Shown: positions 3,681 to 7,299 of the stretch, piece by piece | Layout: each line of letters starts with the position of its first letter | How positions within the stretch are numbered: the first letter of the stretch is position 1 | Source of the DNA: Lacticaseibacillus mingshuiensis | GTDB lineage: Bacteria > Bacillota > Bacilli > Lactobacillales > Lactobacillaceae | DNA length: 47,213 bases | Direction of reading: 5' to 3' | NCBI RefSeq assembly: GCF_016861785.1 | Contig: NZ_BOLS01000019.1 | Coordinates: forward strand, 1 to 47,213 | Notes under the pieces: generated by a model | Databases searched by the model: none | What the model saw: only the letters and a program-made list of their open reading frames with translations | What the model was told of the DNA's origin: nothing | Program-made: the position numbers and the translations under genes

Positions 3681-4535
3681 ATGAAAAAAACAGGATGGAT
3701 GATCCCGGTCGTTTTGCTAATTGTCGGCATTGCCGCCGGATGTGGCAATCAGAGTACTAGCCAATCGAAGTCAAACAGTTCCGAAAAAATTTCAACAAAA
3801 TCGTCTTCAAAAAAGACTGAGGCATCAAGCGATTCATCAAGCAGTGACACTTCAAGTAGCAGTGATGAAAGTAGCAGTGCGTCGACATTTTCCGACACTG
3901 AGTCAACCAGTTCATCAACAAAGAAGCCAACCATTTCTCGTATTACCGAGCTTAATCAGCAGATTCATGCCAAACTGACGGTCGCTAAATTGCCAACCAC
4001 CGTTTCAACCGCGACCGGCAAAGTGCTGAATGCGGCCATTTCAGGCACCAACGAGGCATATACGGTCAACTATAGTGAAGGCAGTCAAGAAGTTGCGCTG
4101 AACGTCGCTTCTGTGGCCCCAATTTTGGAGCTCACAAAGAAGACTTATTCAACAGCTGCCGCCGCACAATCGCAGATCAATTATCAGCAGATTCAAAAAG
4201 GCTTGCCAACAGTCTCGCTGGGCTATGGGATGACGGCGACGCAAGAAGGTGCGGCAGGGTCCTCGTACACCACTTGGCACGAAGGTAACTGGTCCATCAC
4301 CGTGGTCTCATCGAATGTCCAAGGTGAAGATGGTCTGCCATTAGCAAAACAGGCGGCGGCCTATTTCAATCGCTACGCCCTACCAGCGCCTGATGGTCAA
4401 GCAACGGTTCAGCTTTATGTGGCGAAGTCTTCGGACTTGATGAACGTGATCACTTGGCGCAAGGGTACAGCTCTGTATACAGCGTCGGGCACGGATGCCA
4501 TGAAGCTTTTGCAAGCAGCGGTCACCATTCGCTGA
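3681..4535 (+). CDS. Lipoprotein with Ser-rich linker, function unknown
   Basis: The 284-residue product starts at ATG 3681, nine bases after AGGAGG (3666-3671). A lipoprotein signal ends in the lipobox GIAAGC (Cys21). A low-complexity Ser/Lys/Thr/Asp tract follows to about residue 80, probably a wall-spanning linker. A globular domain of about 200 residues then ends in VQLYVAKSSDLMNVITW. I do not recognise the family. Similar short lipoproteins with Ser-rich stalks are common and uncharacterised in lactobacilli. A TATACT element at 3628-3633 may be the -10, and a terminator follows at 4559-4594. Confidence 0.85.
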   Translation: MKKTGWMIPVVLLIVGIAAGCGNQSTSQSKSNSSEKISTKSSSKKTEASSDSSSSDTSSSSDESSSASTFSDTESTSSSTKKPTISRITELNQQIHAKLTVAKLPTTVSTATGKVLNAAISGTNEAYTVNYSEGSQEVALNVASVAPILELTKKTYSTAAAAQSQINYQQIQKGLPTVSLGYGMTATQEGAAGSSYTTWHEGNWSITVVSSNVQGEDGLPLAKQAAAYFNRYALPAPDGQATVQLYVAKSSDLMNVITWRKGTALYTASGTDAMKLLQAAVTIR

Positions 4536-4558
4536 TTATATTCAAGAATATCTTTCAC

Positions 4559-4594
4559 AGCCAAGGTGCGGTTCTCCGCTTCCTTGGCTTTTTT
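4559..4594 (+). terminator. Intrinsic terminator
   Basis: AGCCAAGG (4559-4566) pairs with CCTTGGCT (4582-4589), followed by a run of T. It closes the lipoprotein gene and marks the left edge of the gene-free repeat region. Confidence 0.9.
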
Positions 4595-4849
4595 GTTGTG
4601 AGAAGGTTGACGCTGGCGAAGAATCCAGGAACGGTGCCGTGTGACGCCATCACAAAAGTTTATGCCGCACGCCCATGATGCGTAGCACTCGAAATCGCCG
4701 TCGAGTTTAGACCGGTTAAATTTGCATCGTTTATTCTATCTTGTGTGCCTCCATGACCACTAATTTCAGTATAAAGCATGAACTATTCGCGGATTTTCAG
4801 CGATTGCCGGAACCCGCAGTACATCAACGTTTTAAAATTTCCGATCACA

Positions 4850-4876
4850 TTTTCCGGCTCCCGTTCGCTTTATATT
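4850..4876 (+). promoter_or_regulatory. Candidate promoter of structured RNA unit 1
   Basis: TTTTCC (4850-4855) and TATATT (4871-4876; an overlapping TATTAT sits at 4873-4878) lie just before unit 1. They align base for base, at an offset of 921, with a matching pair before unit 2. The -35 is poor and the start site is not resolved. Confidence 0.4.
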
Positions 4877-5070
4877 ATGTAAGGGTCAGGAAGGTGGGCT
4901 CTTACCGACACCCGAATGAGCATGCCCCAAGTGGAGACTGTCGCATGCATATTCATTCGACTCCATGGGCGGTCGAGGGAAACAGCACACCAACAGAACA
5001 CCTAAATGTACAGCAGGCGTTCAGCACACGTACCATGGGAGTCCGGACTCCCACTAGTCTTTCATCAAAC

Positions 5071-5213
5071 TGTCGTGCAGCCCACCTTCGTTTGCAGGAG
5101 CTGAATGCGGCCCATCTTAAGAACGACACCCTACTCTTCGGAGGAGGGAAGGTCACCGAAATTCTAAGCCTATATGTCACCCAACTTGCACCAGCGTCCG
5201 ATATGGCGGCGAC
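5071..5213 (+). repeat. Internal repeat R, copy 1 (unit 1, first)
   Basis: First of four copies of a module of about 145 bases, running from TGTCGTGCAGCCCACCTT to GATATGGCGGCGAC. It has GTCGT/ACGAC ends around a variable arm, then a UUCG hairpin, then the near-invariant GAAATTCTAAGCC. The next copy begins 271 bases on. Confidence 0.85.
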
Positions 5214-5341
5214 CCAAAGATTCAACCAAGATGATAGGCGTGTGGCCTACCTCGGCAGGTCGCTACAAATGCGACGTCACTGGCTGAAAAGCCAAGTCAC
5301 GCTCTTTGACAACTGAATAGCACTACCGGCATCCACACAAA

Positions 5342-5487
5342 TGTCGTGCAGCCCACCTTTGTTTGCAGGACCTGGAATGCGGCCCATCTTGAGATGGACG
5401 CCCGAGTCTTCGGATAAGGGAAGGTCAACGAAATTCTAAGCCAAGATTTCCTATGCTGACTGCACAAGCGATCGATATGGCGGCGGC
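5342..5487 (+). repeat. Internal repeat R, copy 2 (unit 1, second)
   Basis: Second copy of the module, 271 bases after the first and more diverged. The UUCG hairpin is GTC-TTCG-GAT here, and the ACGAC strand has decayed to GGACG. It continues into GATGCCACAAAAGTTTTTCAAAGAGCA, cut here into two blocks (GATGCCACAAAAG and TTTTTCAAAGAGCA), which is shared only with copy 4. Confidence 0.85.
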
Positions 5488-5770
5488 ACGGATGCCACAA
5501 AAGTTTTTCAAAGAGCAATGCAATCACACAAGTTGCGACTGGCGAGGGCCTGCCGTTCGCAACTTGTGTGGCCCCTGGTCCGGTCAAAGGCCCGACTGGA
5601 TCGGGGGTACATAGCGGATCGCTGACAGCTGAAATGATCCGACGAGAAGGAGCGTGGTCTAATCCGTAGAATTAAAATTTGAAAAGATTTTGGCCGAATT
5701 GATCCGTCCTAAAGCCCGTCATCTCGGCATCCAGAATCTTTTACAAAACATTTACGAGAATCACTTCACA

Positions 5771-5798
5771 TTTGACCCCTTTGCAAACGCTTTACTAG
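5771..5798 (+). promoter_or_regulatory. Candidate promoter of structured RNA unit 2
   Basis: TTTGAC (5771-5776), a 16-base spacer and TACTAG (5793-5798) stand in the same position relative to unit 2 as the elements at 4850-4876 do to unit 1. Confidence 0.4.
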
Positions 5799-5991
5799 TG
5801 TAAGGCCTGAGAAGGTGGTGGCCTTACCGACCCTCTGGGAGGCATGGCGGCATCCAGATAGTGCCGTCTGCGCATTCCCCTATCTGACTGGGCTGACGAG
5901 AAACAACCACACCTACAGAGCGCGCGCCTGATCAGCCGCGTTCAGCACACGCACCATGGGAGTCCGGACTCCCACTAGTCTTTCATCAAAC

Positions 5992-6134
5992 TGTCGTGCA
6001 GCCCACCTTCGTTTGCAGGAGCTGAATGCGGCCCATCTTGAGAACGACACCTTCTTCTTCGAAAGCGGGAAGGTCACCGAAATTCTAAGCCTATATGTCA
6101 CCCAACTTGCACCAGCGTCCGATATGGCGGCGAC
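5992..6134 (+). repeat. Internal repeat R, copy 3 (unit 2, first)
   Basis: Third copy of the module, 921 bases after copy 1. The flanking GGGAGTCCGGACTCCC and CACTAGTCTTTCATCAAAC are identical to those of copy 1. The UUCG loop here has a C-A closing mismatch. Confidence 0.85.
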
Positions 6135-6262
6135 TCAAAGGTCCACCCGAGATGAAAGACGAACGACTCGCTTTGGCGGGTCATAATTGTTGCTCTGTCC
6201 CCGGCGGCAACGCCACGTCACGCTCTTTGAAAGCTGAATAGTTCCACCGGTATCCACACAAA

Positions 6263-6409
6263 TGTCGTGCAGCCCACCTTTGTTTGCAGCACCGGGTATG
6301 CGGCCCATCTTGAGAACGACGCCTTCTTCTTCGGAAGCGGGAAGGTCACCGAAATTCTAAGCCTACATGACCTAAGCTTACTGCACCAGCAATCGATATG
6401 GCGGCGACA
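6263..6409 (+). repeat. Internal repeat R, copy 4 (unit 2, second)
   Basis: Fourth copy, 271 bases after copy 3 and 921 after copy 2. Its UUCG hairpin is the most regular (CCTT, CTTC, TTCG, GAAG, bulge CGGG, AAGG; 6322-6345). Confidence 0.85.
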
Positions 6410-6609
6410 CGGATGCCACAAAAGTTTTCAAAGAGCACTTTATTCACATCTGATTCGACTGGCGCCACAGTCGCATCACGTGCGAATCCTTCCACCAAGC
6501 CGTGGCGCCGGCCTGGCGGAAGTACATAGTTGAGCGCCATCAGGCATGAAATTGAAGTCGCACACATCCAACGCACAACACCAGGACGCTCAAACAGGCT
6601 GAATCAAAT

Positions 6610-6630
6610 GGCCCGAGTTGTCCTCGGGCC
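6610..6630. terminator. Strong hairpin between RNA unit 2 and the ECF gene
   Basis: GGCCCGAG (6610-6617) and CTCGGGCC (6623-6630) form a perfect 8-bp stem. Neither side has a proper T-run. The minus-strand tail ATTTGATT is slightly better, so it may end the ECF gene rather than the RNA. Confidence 0.4.
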
Positions 6631-6693
6631 AGCACGACCTGCCAGCTAAAGCACCGCTGCACGGGTCTCACTTCTTATTGACTCATCAACCAT

Positions 6694-7299
6694 TCACCGT
6701 TTAAACCGCATCAGTCCCTGCCCGATCACAGGCGTCACAACGCCCGCCATCAGAGTCTCAAGTGCCGCATTGGTTGCAAAGGCCACCATCAGAAGCCACC
6801 ACAAATTGGCTGCGTTGGCACCGGCAAGCACCTGTGTCGCGTTATGAGCGAAAAATAGCCAGGTGAACAGGATCACCAACGCCGTGTTCGTCAATGCGCC
6901 GGCCACCCCTGCCGCGATCATCTTCACGGTTGCGCCGACGCCGTGCAGAACAGACGGTGCGATGTGATTGAAAATGGCCCCCGCCACGATGCCCACCATC
7001 ACGCGCGGGATGATCGCGATCACCGGATTTTGGAAAAGTAATAACGTGAGCGGATCCGTCGCATCGGTGTAAGCTTTGACCAAACTGATCACACCCCACA
7101 TCAGACCGAGCCCTGCCCCGCCGCGCACGCCCAAGATCACTCCCGCCATGATCACCGTCAGATGCATGGTCGAGATCGCAGGCAGGCCCGGAATGATGCG
7201 AATGTAGCCGACCATTGGGATGTACGCCTGCATGATGAGTAGCGCACCGAGCACGCCGATGATACTGATGGTGTAAGCGGAACTAGACTTGTGCGTCAT
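6694..7299 (-). CDS. ECF transporter S component
   Basis: A 201-residue, very hydrophobic protein with about five or six membrane segments. The pattern (MQAYIPMVGYIRIIPGLPA, HLTVIMAGVILGVRGG, FQNPVIAIIPRVMVGI) is that of the substrate-binding S subunit of energy-coupling factor importers. S components capture a vitamin or trace substrate and dock onto the shared EcfAA'T module, which is not encoded nearby. The substrate cannot be read from sequence; the pantothenate- or riboflavin-type groups are possibilities only. The ATG at 7299 follows a GGAGG at 7306-7310. It appears monocistronic and faces the structured RNA region. Confidence 0.8.
   Translation of the reverse strand: MTHKSSSAYTISIIGVLGALLIMQAYIPMVGYIRIIPGLPAISTMHLTVIMAGVILGVRGGAGLGLMWGVISLVKAYTDATDPLTLLLFQNPVIAIIPRVMVGIVAGAIFNHIAPSVLHGVGATVKMIAAGVAGALTNTALVILFTWLFFAHNATQVLAGANAANLWWLLMVAFATNAALETLMAGVVTPVIGQGLMRFKR

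Follow-up and report, generated by a model that had tools for sequence, protein, structure and literature searches.

The 47,213-nt window (the whole stretch of DNA analysed here, contig C19 of a 2.76-Mb genome from the same genus as Lacticaseibacillus yichunensis) contains two noncoding units that very probably belong to a new family of large RNAs. Our overall reading is that the units form such a family, would be transcribed within an alternative-sigma regulon and may act as folded scaffolds; we give this reading a probability of roughly 0.6. To our knowledge, few bacterial RNAs of such size and complexity have been described, and their functions are poorly understood. The promoter class, the associated operon and the type of sigma factor reported below are handles that could be perturbed; orthologous copies exist in L. 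yichunensis 33-1, and the natural variants can serve as a mutational scan.

The units, A and B, lie in a gene-free stretch (4536-6693) flanked by open reading frames (ORFs) of 284 and 201 aa; the upstream ORF ends at 4535, and a gene for an ECF transporter (PF12822) occupies 6694-7299 on the other side. As the original prediction had claimed, the units are collinear. Both contain a pseudoknot after the 5' hairpin and two more hairpins ahead of module M1; a linker separates M1 from module M2, which is followed by two 3' hairpins and the sequence GTACATA (Table 1). The units are offset by 915-922 (920-921 for the repeat families, 922 for the starts delimited by homology, and 915 for the GTACATA ends at 5607 and 6522). 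The duplicated internal module was likewise found in both units, at a spacing of 271-274. The predicted helix changes were present as well, the first hairpin going from GTAAGGG/CTCTTAC to GTAAGGCC/GGCCTTAC and a second arm from GAATGA/TCATTC to GGGA/TCCC. Two details required amendment. The 13-bp 3' helix exists, but the best hairpin of unit B is longer and interrupted (6442-6487), and is not only GATTCG/CGAATC; the UUCG hairpin differs in its details from the description given, the stem of 5994-6134 in unit B being imperfect.

Table 1. Positions of units A and B and of their parts in the window.
Feature	Position	Strand	Sequence or remark
Promoter of unit A	4846..4872	+	CACATTTT 4846-4853, 12 nt, CGCTTTA 4866-4872
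Unit A, large structured RNA (very probable)	4871..5613	+	743 nt as delimited by homology, not by transcript ends
Hairpin H1, unit A	4879..4905	+	GTAAGGG/CTCTTAC, invariant loop GAAGGTGG
Pseudoknot, unit A	4914..4966	+	GAATGA 4914-4919 with TCATTC 4953-4958
Pseudoknot, unit A, further arms	GCATGC 4920-4925 with 4943-4948; GTGGAG 4931-4936 with CTCCAT 4961-4966	+	
Hairpin H5, unit A	4996..5022	+	GAACACC..GCGTTC
Hairpin H6, unit A	5037..5052	+	GGGAGTCCGGACTCCC, palindromic, central CCGG
Module M1, unit A	5056..5239	+	closed by AGTCTTTCATC/GATGATAGGC; core 5073-5213 with CCACCTTC and UUCG hairpin
Linker hairpin, unit A	5244..5261	+	GGCCTACCTCGGCAGGTC
Module M2, unit A	5301..5516	+	closed by GCTCTTTGA/TTTCAAAGAGC; core 5344-5487
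3' hairpin S3, unit A	5525..5570	+	CACACAAGTTGCG..CGCAACTTGTGTG
Terminal hairpin T3, unit A	5571..5608	+	
3' end GTACATA, unit A	5607..5613	+	conserved; flanks past GTACATA unrelated
Promoter of unit B	5767..5794	+	CACATTTG 5767-5774, 13 nt, CGCTTTA 5788-5794
Unit B, large structured RNA (very probable)	5793..6528	+	736 nt as delimited by homology
Hairpin H1, unit B	5800..5827	+	GTAAGGCC/GGCCTTAC
Pseudoknot, unit B	5836..5886	+	GGGA/TCCC, GGCGGC/GCCGTC, CAGATAG/CTATCTG
Hairpin H5, unit B	5918..5943	+	
Hairpin H6, unit B	5958..5973	+	
Module M1, unit B	5977..6160	+	core 5994-6134
Linker hairpin, unit B	6165..6182	+	
Module M2, unit B	6222..6436	+	core 6265-6408
3' hairpin S3, unit B	6442..6487	+	sequence type differs from unit A
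Terminal hairpin T3, unit B	6489..6522	+	
3' end GTACATA, unit B	6522..6528	+	conserved

A whole-genome DNA search, with projection on the flanks, located 13 units at nine loci. Tandem pairs occur on contigs C19, C2, C11 and C4, and single units on C6, C14, C1, C9 and at a second place on C4; the tandem arrangement that the original prediction had singled out is thus real but not peculiar to this locus (four of nine loci are tandem pairs, five of nine single). One unit, C11a, is shorter by about 271 nt, having lost the stretch between its module repeats. We rejected a protein gene as the explanation of the units. The mechanical ORFs inside 4536-6693 were not conserved as frames across the aligned copies, 203 of the 229 gap runs in the alignment of 15 units were not multiples of 3, and none of the six frames was free of stops in any of the 15 rows. 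Approximately 180-230 nt on the 5' side of the unit (window 4639-4870) are common to the upstream flanks of C11, C4x and C6, suggesting that some copies arose as larger segmental duplications.

Conservation of the fold was examined with a helix-swap test, in which eight helical regions per unit were halved and the duplex energy of the native halves was compared with that of halves swapped between copies. Results showed that all eight regions, including the 5' pseudoknot, paired better natively than swapped. Permutations at least as good as the native arrangement numbered 0 of 5000 for both pseudoknot windows, S3 and T3, 1 of 5000 each for H5 and the linker, 12 of 5000 for H1, and 91 of 5000 for H6, where the test rests on five distinct variants. 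The windows for S3 and T3 came from native folds, which favours native pairing; the other windows were fixed by anchors. Alignment A3, comprising 15 units, excludes C11a (which was part of the hairpin reading and the helix-swap test) and the contig-end fragments of L. yichunensis. In it 97.0% of cells paired over the 15 copies, versus 34.9-46.7% when the partners were slid by 1-3 columns. Double-change cells numbered 69, compared with a shuffled mean of 25.2 (none of 500 shuffles reached 69), and 21 pairs had double changes, compared with 14.7 in shuffles (0 of 500); the count of further pair types was ordinary (78 vs 74.8, matched by 58 of 500 shuffles). RNAalifold, applied to a plain MAFFT alignment of the 15 units, returned 148 pairs, 21 of them with double changes; such an alignment is not structural and therefore serves the variable arms poorly.

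These signals are unevenly distributed along the unit. Several unrelated sequence types exist for S3, and each of the 16 units read nonetheless forms a hairpin there, whereas the module interiors are nearly invariant and their stems rest mostly on energy and a few changes. Single-sequence folding gave a z of -4.95 for unit A and only -1.59 for unit B (20 shuffles each), such that unit B by itself folds just slightly better than shuffles. A closing 5'-3' pairing overlaps H1 and the promoter, and is broken in C2a. The variants look shuffled among the copies, and for this reason the copies are not independent lineages. We concluded that the conserved large fold proposed for each unit is borne out by the preference for native halves, the excess of double-change cells and the double changes found by RNAalifold, and that the comparison of copies argues strongly for a common fold kept by compensatory change in all of them.

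Some unpaired segments of the predicted fold are complementary to one another. The H1 loop, GAAGGUGG, is present in all 14 units for which the 5' end is included, and 7-8 nt of it are complementary to CCACCUU(C) of both modules; CCACCUU has two sites in 14 of 15 units and one in C4b. Conserved unpaired segments contained three overlapping complementary 7-mers (two sites), compared with 0.06 in shuffles, a fraction of 0.001 of which reached this number. Hairpin H6 has a palindromic CCGG centre in 16 of 16 units read, while its stem varies. Because the kissing and CCGG pairings hardly vary, covariation cannot prove these pairings. Palindromic loops of a similar sort make intermolecular contacts in OLE and GOLLD, according to the portions of PMC12286853 consulted. 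The predicted loop complementarity and the CCGG palindrome suggest that the RNA forms homo-oligomers.

All 13 units, together with six units of L. yichunensis, are preceded by CACATTTT or a variant, 12-13 nt, CGCTT and then GTAAGG, and all 13 units open with a GUAAGG hairpin. Close variants of the first element before units are CACATTTG, CACATTTC, CACATTCT and TACGTTTT. CGCTT and GTAAGG are the invariant parts, and the AT-rich segment between them varies. The strict pattern CACANWTTN{11,15}CGCTTW gave 12 matches in the whole genome and 0 in a reversed control; seven matches were unit promoters, one was a DUF1659 promoter and four were neither. The strict pattern thus covers 7 of 13 units, and a looser form covers 13 of 13. 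The four matches with neither a unit nor DUF1659 (C3, C4:48512, C10 and C26) were set aside as probably due to chance.

At C9, a promoter of the unit type (L033:6758, minus strand) precedes a small operon that is divergent from the unit. The operon encodes an 80-residue DUF1659-like protein (E 0.0022, below the Pfam cut-off) and a DUF2922 protein (E 1.7e-10). Beyond it lies a convergent sigma-70-like gene (L033:5516-6080), in which region 4 (sigma70_r4, E 1.5e-7) and a region-2-like part (E 0.041, below the Pfam cut-off) are in different frames; a frameshift, a sequencing error or recoding might each produce such a split, and the sequence cannot distinguish these. Given the split gene, and given that a search for C9 in the L. 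yichunensis assembly found nothing, another sigma factor may act on the promoters. The operon (L033:6163-6710, minus strand) ends, as the RNA units do, with a GC hairpin and GTACATA, possibly an unusual 3'-end signal without a U tract.

We found DUF1659 in 16 of 30 genus genomes (14 above the curated cut-off) and in 231 of 397 family genomes (201 above it). DUF1659 upstream regions share a promoter that ends in TGTARG and opens a GUAAG../CUUAC hairpin. Among the matches listed, this promoter-hairpin motif lay at most 350 nt upstream on the sense strand at 25 of 29 family-wide DUF1659 loci (30 loci less L132, which is at a contig start) and was missing at four, and the complementary hairpin arm was present at 24 of 29, compared with a motif background of 0.008 per 350 nt. 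The motif was written after the loci had been read, so that only the comparison with background counts as a test. As far as the DNA can tell, the RNA gene resembles a DUF1659 gene at its 5' end and then continues differently. The unit promoter ties the units to a DUF1659-type regulon, and membership of the same regulon as DUF1659 is probable.

The surroundings of DUF1659 in the genus provide a candidate for the regulator. A sigma-like gene was found within approximately 3 kb at 8 of 18 DUF1659 loci and at none of the other 10. Genus cassettes contain DUF1659 and DUF2922 in one or more copies each; some also contain a YvrJ-like protein of 55-56 residues (E 0.0003-0.005, below the cut-off, three tested), and some a GH25 lysozyme (E 2e-32 in L125). 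No divergent unit was recognised by motif at the 30 family-wide DUF1659 loci listed (1.7-3.2 kb each); L135 and L147 showed weak matches on the opposite strand, and L152 had a second promoter on the same strand. Upstream of the unit at C14, and of its L. yichunensis orthologue, is a decayed promoter of the DUF1659 type, which fits a spread of the RNA from a DUF1659 locus. In two related genomes, G010 and G005, a DUF1659-type promoter (TTTATATCGATGTAAGG; L089:1500 and L090:1500) is followed by a short noncoding stretch.

Further comparisons concerned the proteins and another regulon. Searches of DUF1659 and DUF2922 against PDB sequences gave nothing convincing, the DUF1659 matches under 0.05 being designed helical proteins, and one DUF1659 protein had no match in plasmids. 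The literature search found no paper combining any two of DUF1659, DUF2922 and a sigma factor. A ComX/SigH competence regulon was not indicated: CACATTTT..CGCTT was absent upstream of a T2SSE gene (L187), in a comparison of one com operon, its gene taken as comGA, that was read by eye. In L. sakei, sigma-H drives com genes (PMC3364868, consulted in part).

We propose that an alternative sigma factor of the type encoded at DUF1659 loci would turn on all copies of the unit along with the DUF1659-DUF2922 operon. Joint activation would bring the RNA to high amounts, and the abundant RNA might then work as a folded scaffold, in which the H1 loop could kiss CCACCUU in both modules (one loop with two receptors) and the CCGG centre of H6 could pair with itself between molecules. 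An oligomeric or scaffold function is put forward tentatively. A different use of the same regulon, which we regard as rather unlikely, is a monomeric regulatory RNA acting in trans, for example as a sponge that captures a protein, or mRNAs with the imitated hairpin. The unit promoter and first hairpin do imitate the 5' ends of DUF1659 mRNAs, and many copies would supply dosage; however, an ornate fold of 740 nt that includes a pseudoknot and duplicated modules far exceeds the needs of a sponge, and the H1 loop was not seen in the DUF1659 hairpins inspected. That is, because of the size, the pseudoknot, the duplicated module and the loop complementarity, a structural RNA fits better than a sponge.

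The assignment to an alternative sigma factor could also be questioned, in that TATAAT-like strings (TATATT, TATAGT) follow CGCTT in some copies, as expected if the units had an ordinary housekeeping promoter that resembled DUF1659 promoters through shared ancestry only. We consider this improbable, because CGCTT and GTAAGG are invariant while the AT-rich part between them varies, and because the motif is kept upstream of DUF1659 at most of the loci tested (25/29).

The distribution of the RNA is narrow and its dispersal appears old. Units were matched in 2 of 30 genomes in the genus search and in 2 of 397 in the family search, the second genome (G021) being L. yichunensis 33-1. An exact 23-base pattern was found in seven stretches, all from L. 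yichunensis 33-1, among one genome per species of GTDB r220, a set from which the source genome of the window is perhaps absent. L. yichunensis has complete units on its contigs C1 and C6; the unit on C46 is nearly complete, and several others are cut by contig ends. A search of the 397 family genomes with R1, a covariance model built on the module core, retrieved this genome and L. yichunensis. A third R1 match, in genome G022 (E 1.1e-4), was taken as chance, the sequence being read as protein-coding; the gene is presumably mfd. Eight of the nine loci have flanks that align with L. yichunensis contigs in which the element occupies the corresponding position (approximately 82-97% identity); this places the dispersal before the split from L. 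yichunensis and disfavours recent mobility. For C9, the exception, no counterpart turned up in the L. yichunensis assembly.

These data bear on whether the units lack a cellular function and are simply a selfish or dispersed repeat, with a structure that promotes its own spreading or stability. The 13 units at nine places, the mosaic variants, the tandem pairs and the module loss in C11a are all what such a repeat might show. We judge this explanation improbable nonetheless, since the orthologous positions make the spread old, no ORF is conserved, the promoter motif and helices are kept in 13 of 13 units, and blastn found no match to units in plasmid records or among 50,697 phage records. One pattern likewise had 0 exact matches in IMG/VR. 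A gene for a primase-helicase of a TOTE conflict system adjoins the C4 pair (L029:4271-7054). Phage-type holin, DUF6275 and GH25 genes adjoin the C11 pair (L028:9733-11417), C11 being the one locus of nine beside genes of this type. The holin gene has no promoter of the unit type upstream, and we therefore rejected this lysis operon as a member of the regulon.

Candidates for other RNAs of this kind were found in genome G004, which represents a third species. This one genome of the 30 in the genus contains, in four copies, a noncoding repeat of another type, approximately 550 nt long (L125:6726-7290 on C21, and in L128, L129 and L103), with UUCG loops and an internally duplicated module at 144-nt spacing. 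Among the matches listed, three of the four start at a promoter of the unit class, and the fourth reads N there; at C21 the repeat is divergent from a sigma/GH25/YvrJ/DUF2922/DUF1659 cassette. On C27 (L122:4964-5940, minus strand) a noncoding candidate of approximately 970 nt with a 287-nt tandem duplication lies opposite DUF1659. Both candidates fold better than 20 shuffles each (z -5.83 and -4.98), but three copies of the C21-type RNA gave no sign of covariation, with 0 compensatory, 33 one-sided and 45 broken cells. They are unrelated in sequence to the 13-unit family, and the R1 search did not find them. Evidence for DUF1659 with a divergent RNA thus comes from three loci in two genomes. 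The arrangement allows a bolder reading, possible though doubtful, of a lactobacillar regulon in which an alternative sigma factor co-expresses DUF1659/DUF2922 proteins and a divergent giant RNA. Position, promoter, 5' hairpin and duplicated module would stay between species while the RNA sequence turned over completely, and in two species the RNA would have spread to about nine loci. The product might be a ribonucleoprotein or an RNA-only assembly, with repeated modules joined by loop-loop contacts. Should the G004 candidates prove genuine, the presence of RNAs unrelated in sequence beside one type of operon would imply wholesale replacement of the RNA while the system persists.

The likeness to GOLLD or ROOL raised in the original prediction holds as an analogy only. 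No Rfam model matched the units at the gathering score, and relaxing the threshold to E 10 yielded no credible match either; the three matches obtained (E 3 to 6.2) were eukaryotic lncRNA models far below their cut-offs and were discarded. We rejected identity with GOLLD, ROOL, OLE or HEARO because there was no Rfam match to any of them. A nearby tRNA had been offered as a hint, but this is the sole locus of the nine with a tRNA closer than 1 kb; at C11 one lies approximately 7 kb away, and the other seven loci have none in the flanks fetched. A very divergent relative of GOLLD or ROOL is highly unlikely: size, an ornate fold with a pseudoknot, the occurrence in lactobacilli and the phage-type neighbours of C11 speak for it, and the Rfam results, the phage and IMG/VR searches and the position outside tRNA arrays against it.

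The passages of PMC12286853 on GOLLD describe an ornate RNA of more than 800 nt in many members, whose function is unknown and which is reported to rise during phage lysis. Large size and an ornate fold are common to GOLLD and the units; in contrast to GOLLD, the units number 13 on the chromosome of one genome, have their own promoter type, and are found neither in tRNA islands nor in the phage records searched. GOLLD forms a homo-oligomeric cage, and for the units loop complementarity suggests oligomers. ROOL, at 520 nt in L. salivarius and 659 nt in a rumen member, is more abundant than 16S rRNA where measured, as given in the parts of PMC5643018 and PMC12286853 consulted. Like the units it occurs in lactobacilli, but it is borne by phages, prophages or megaplasmids and lies near tRNA islands, whereas the units are chromosomally dispersed in two species only. 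OLE is likewise a large and ornate RNA of bacteria, and it dimerizes (PMC12286853, same passages); the units resemble it in size and ornateness but have no match to its Rfam model. The titles and abstract openings covered by our literature search contained no description of this RNA family, and no noncoding RNA for sigma-DUF1659-DUF2922-YvrJ-GH25 loci turned up in the searches made. Those loci presumably resemble the Bacillus SigO/YvrJ locus. In Lactobacillaceae they have the same promoter type and first hairpin as the units, and the RNA at C9 is divergent from just such an operon.
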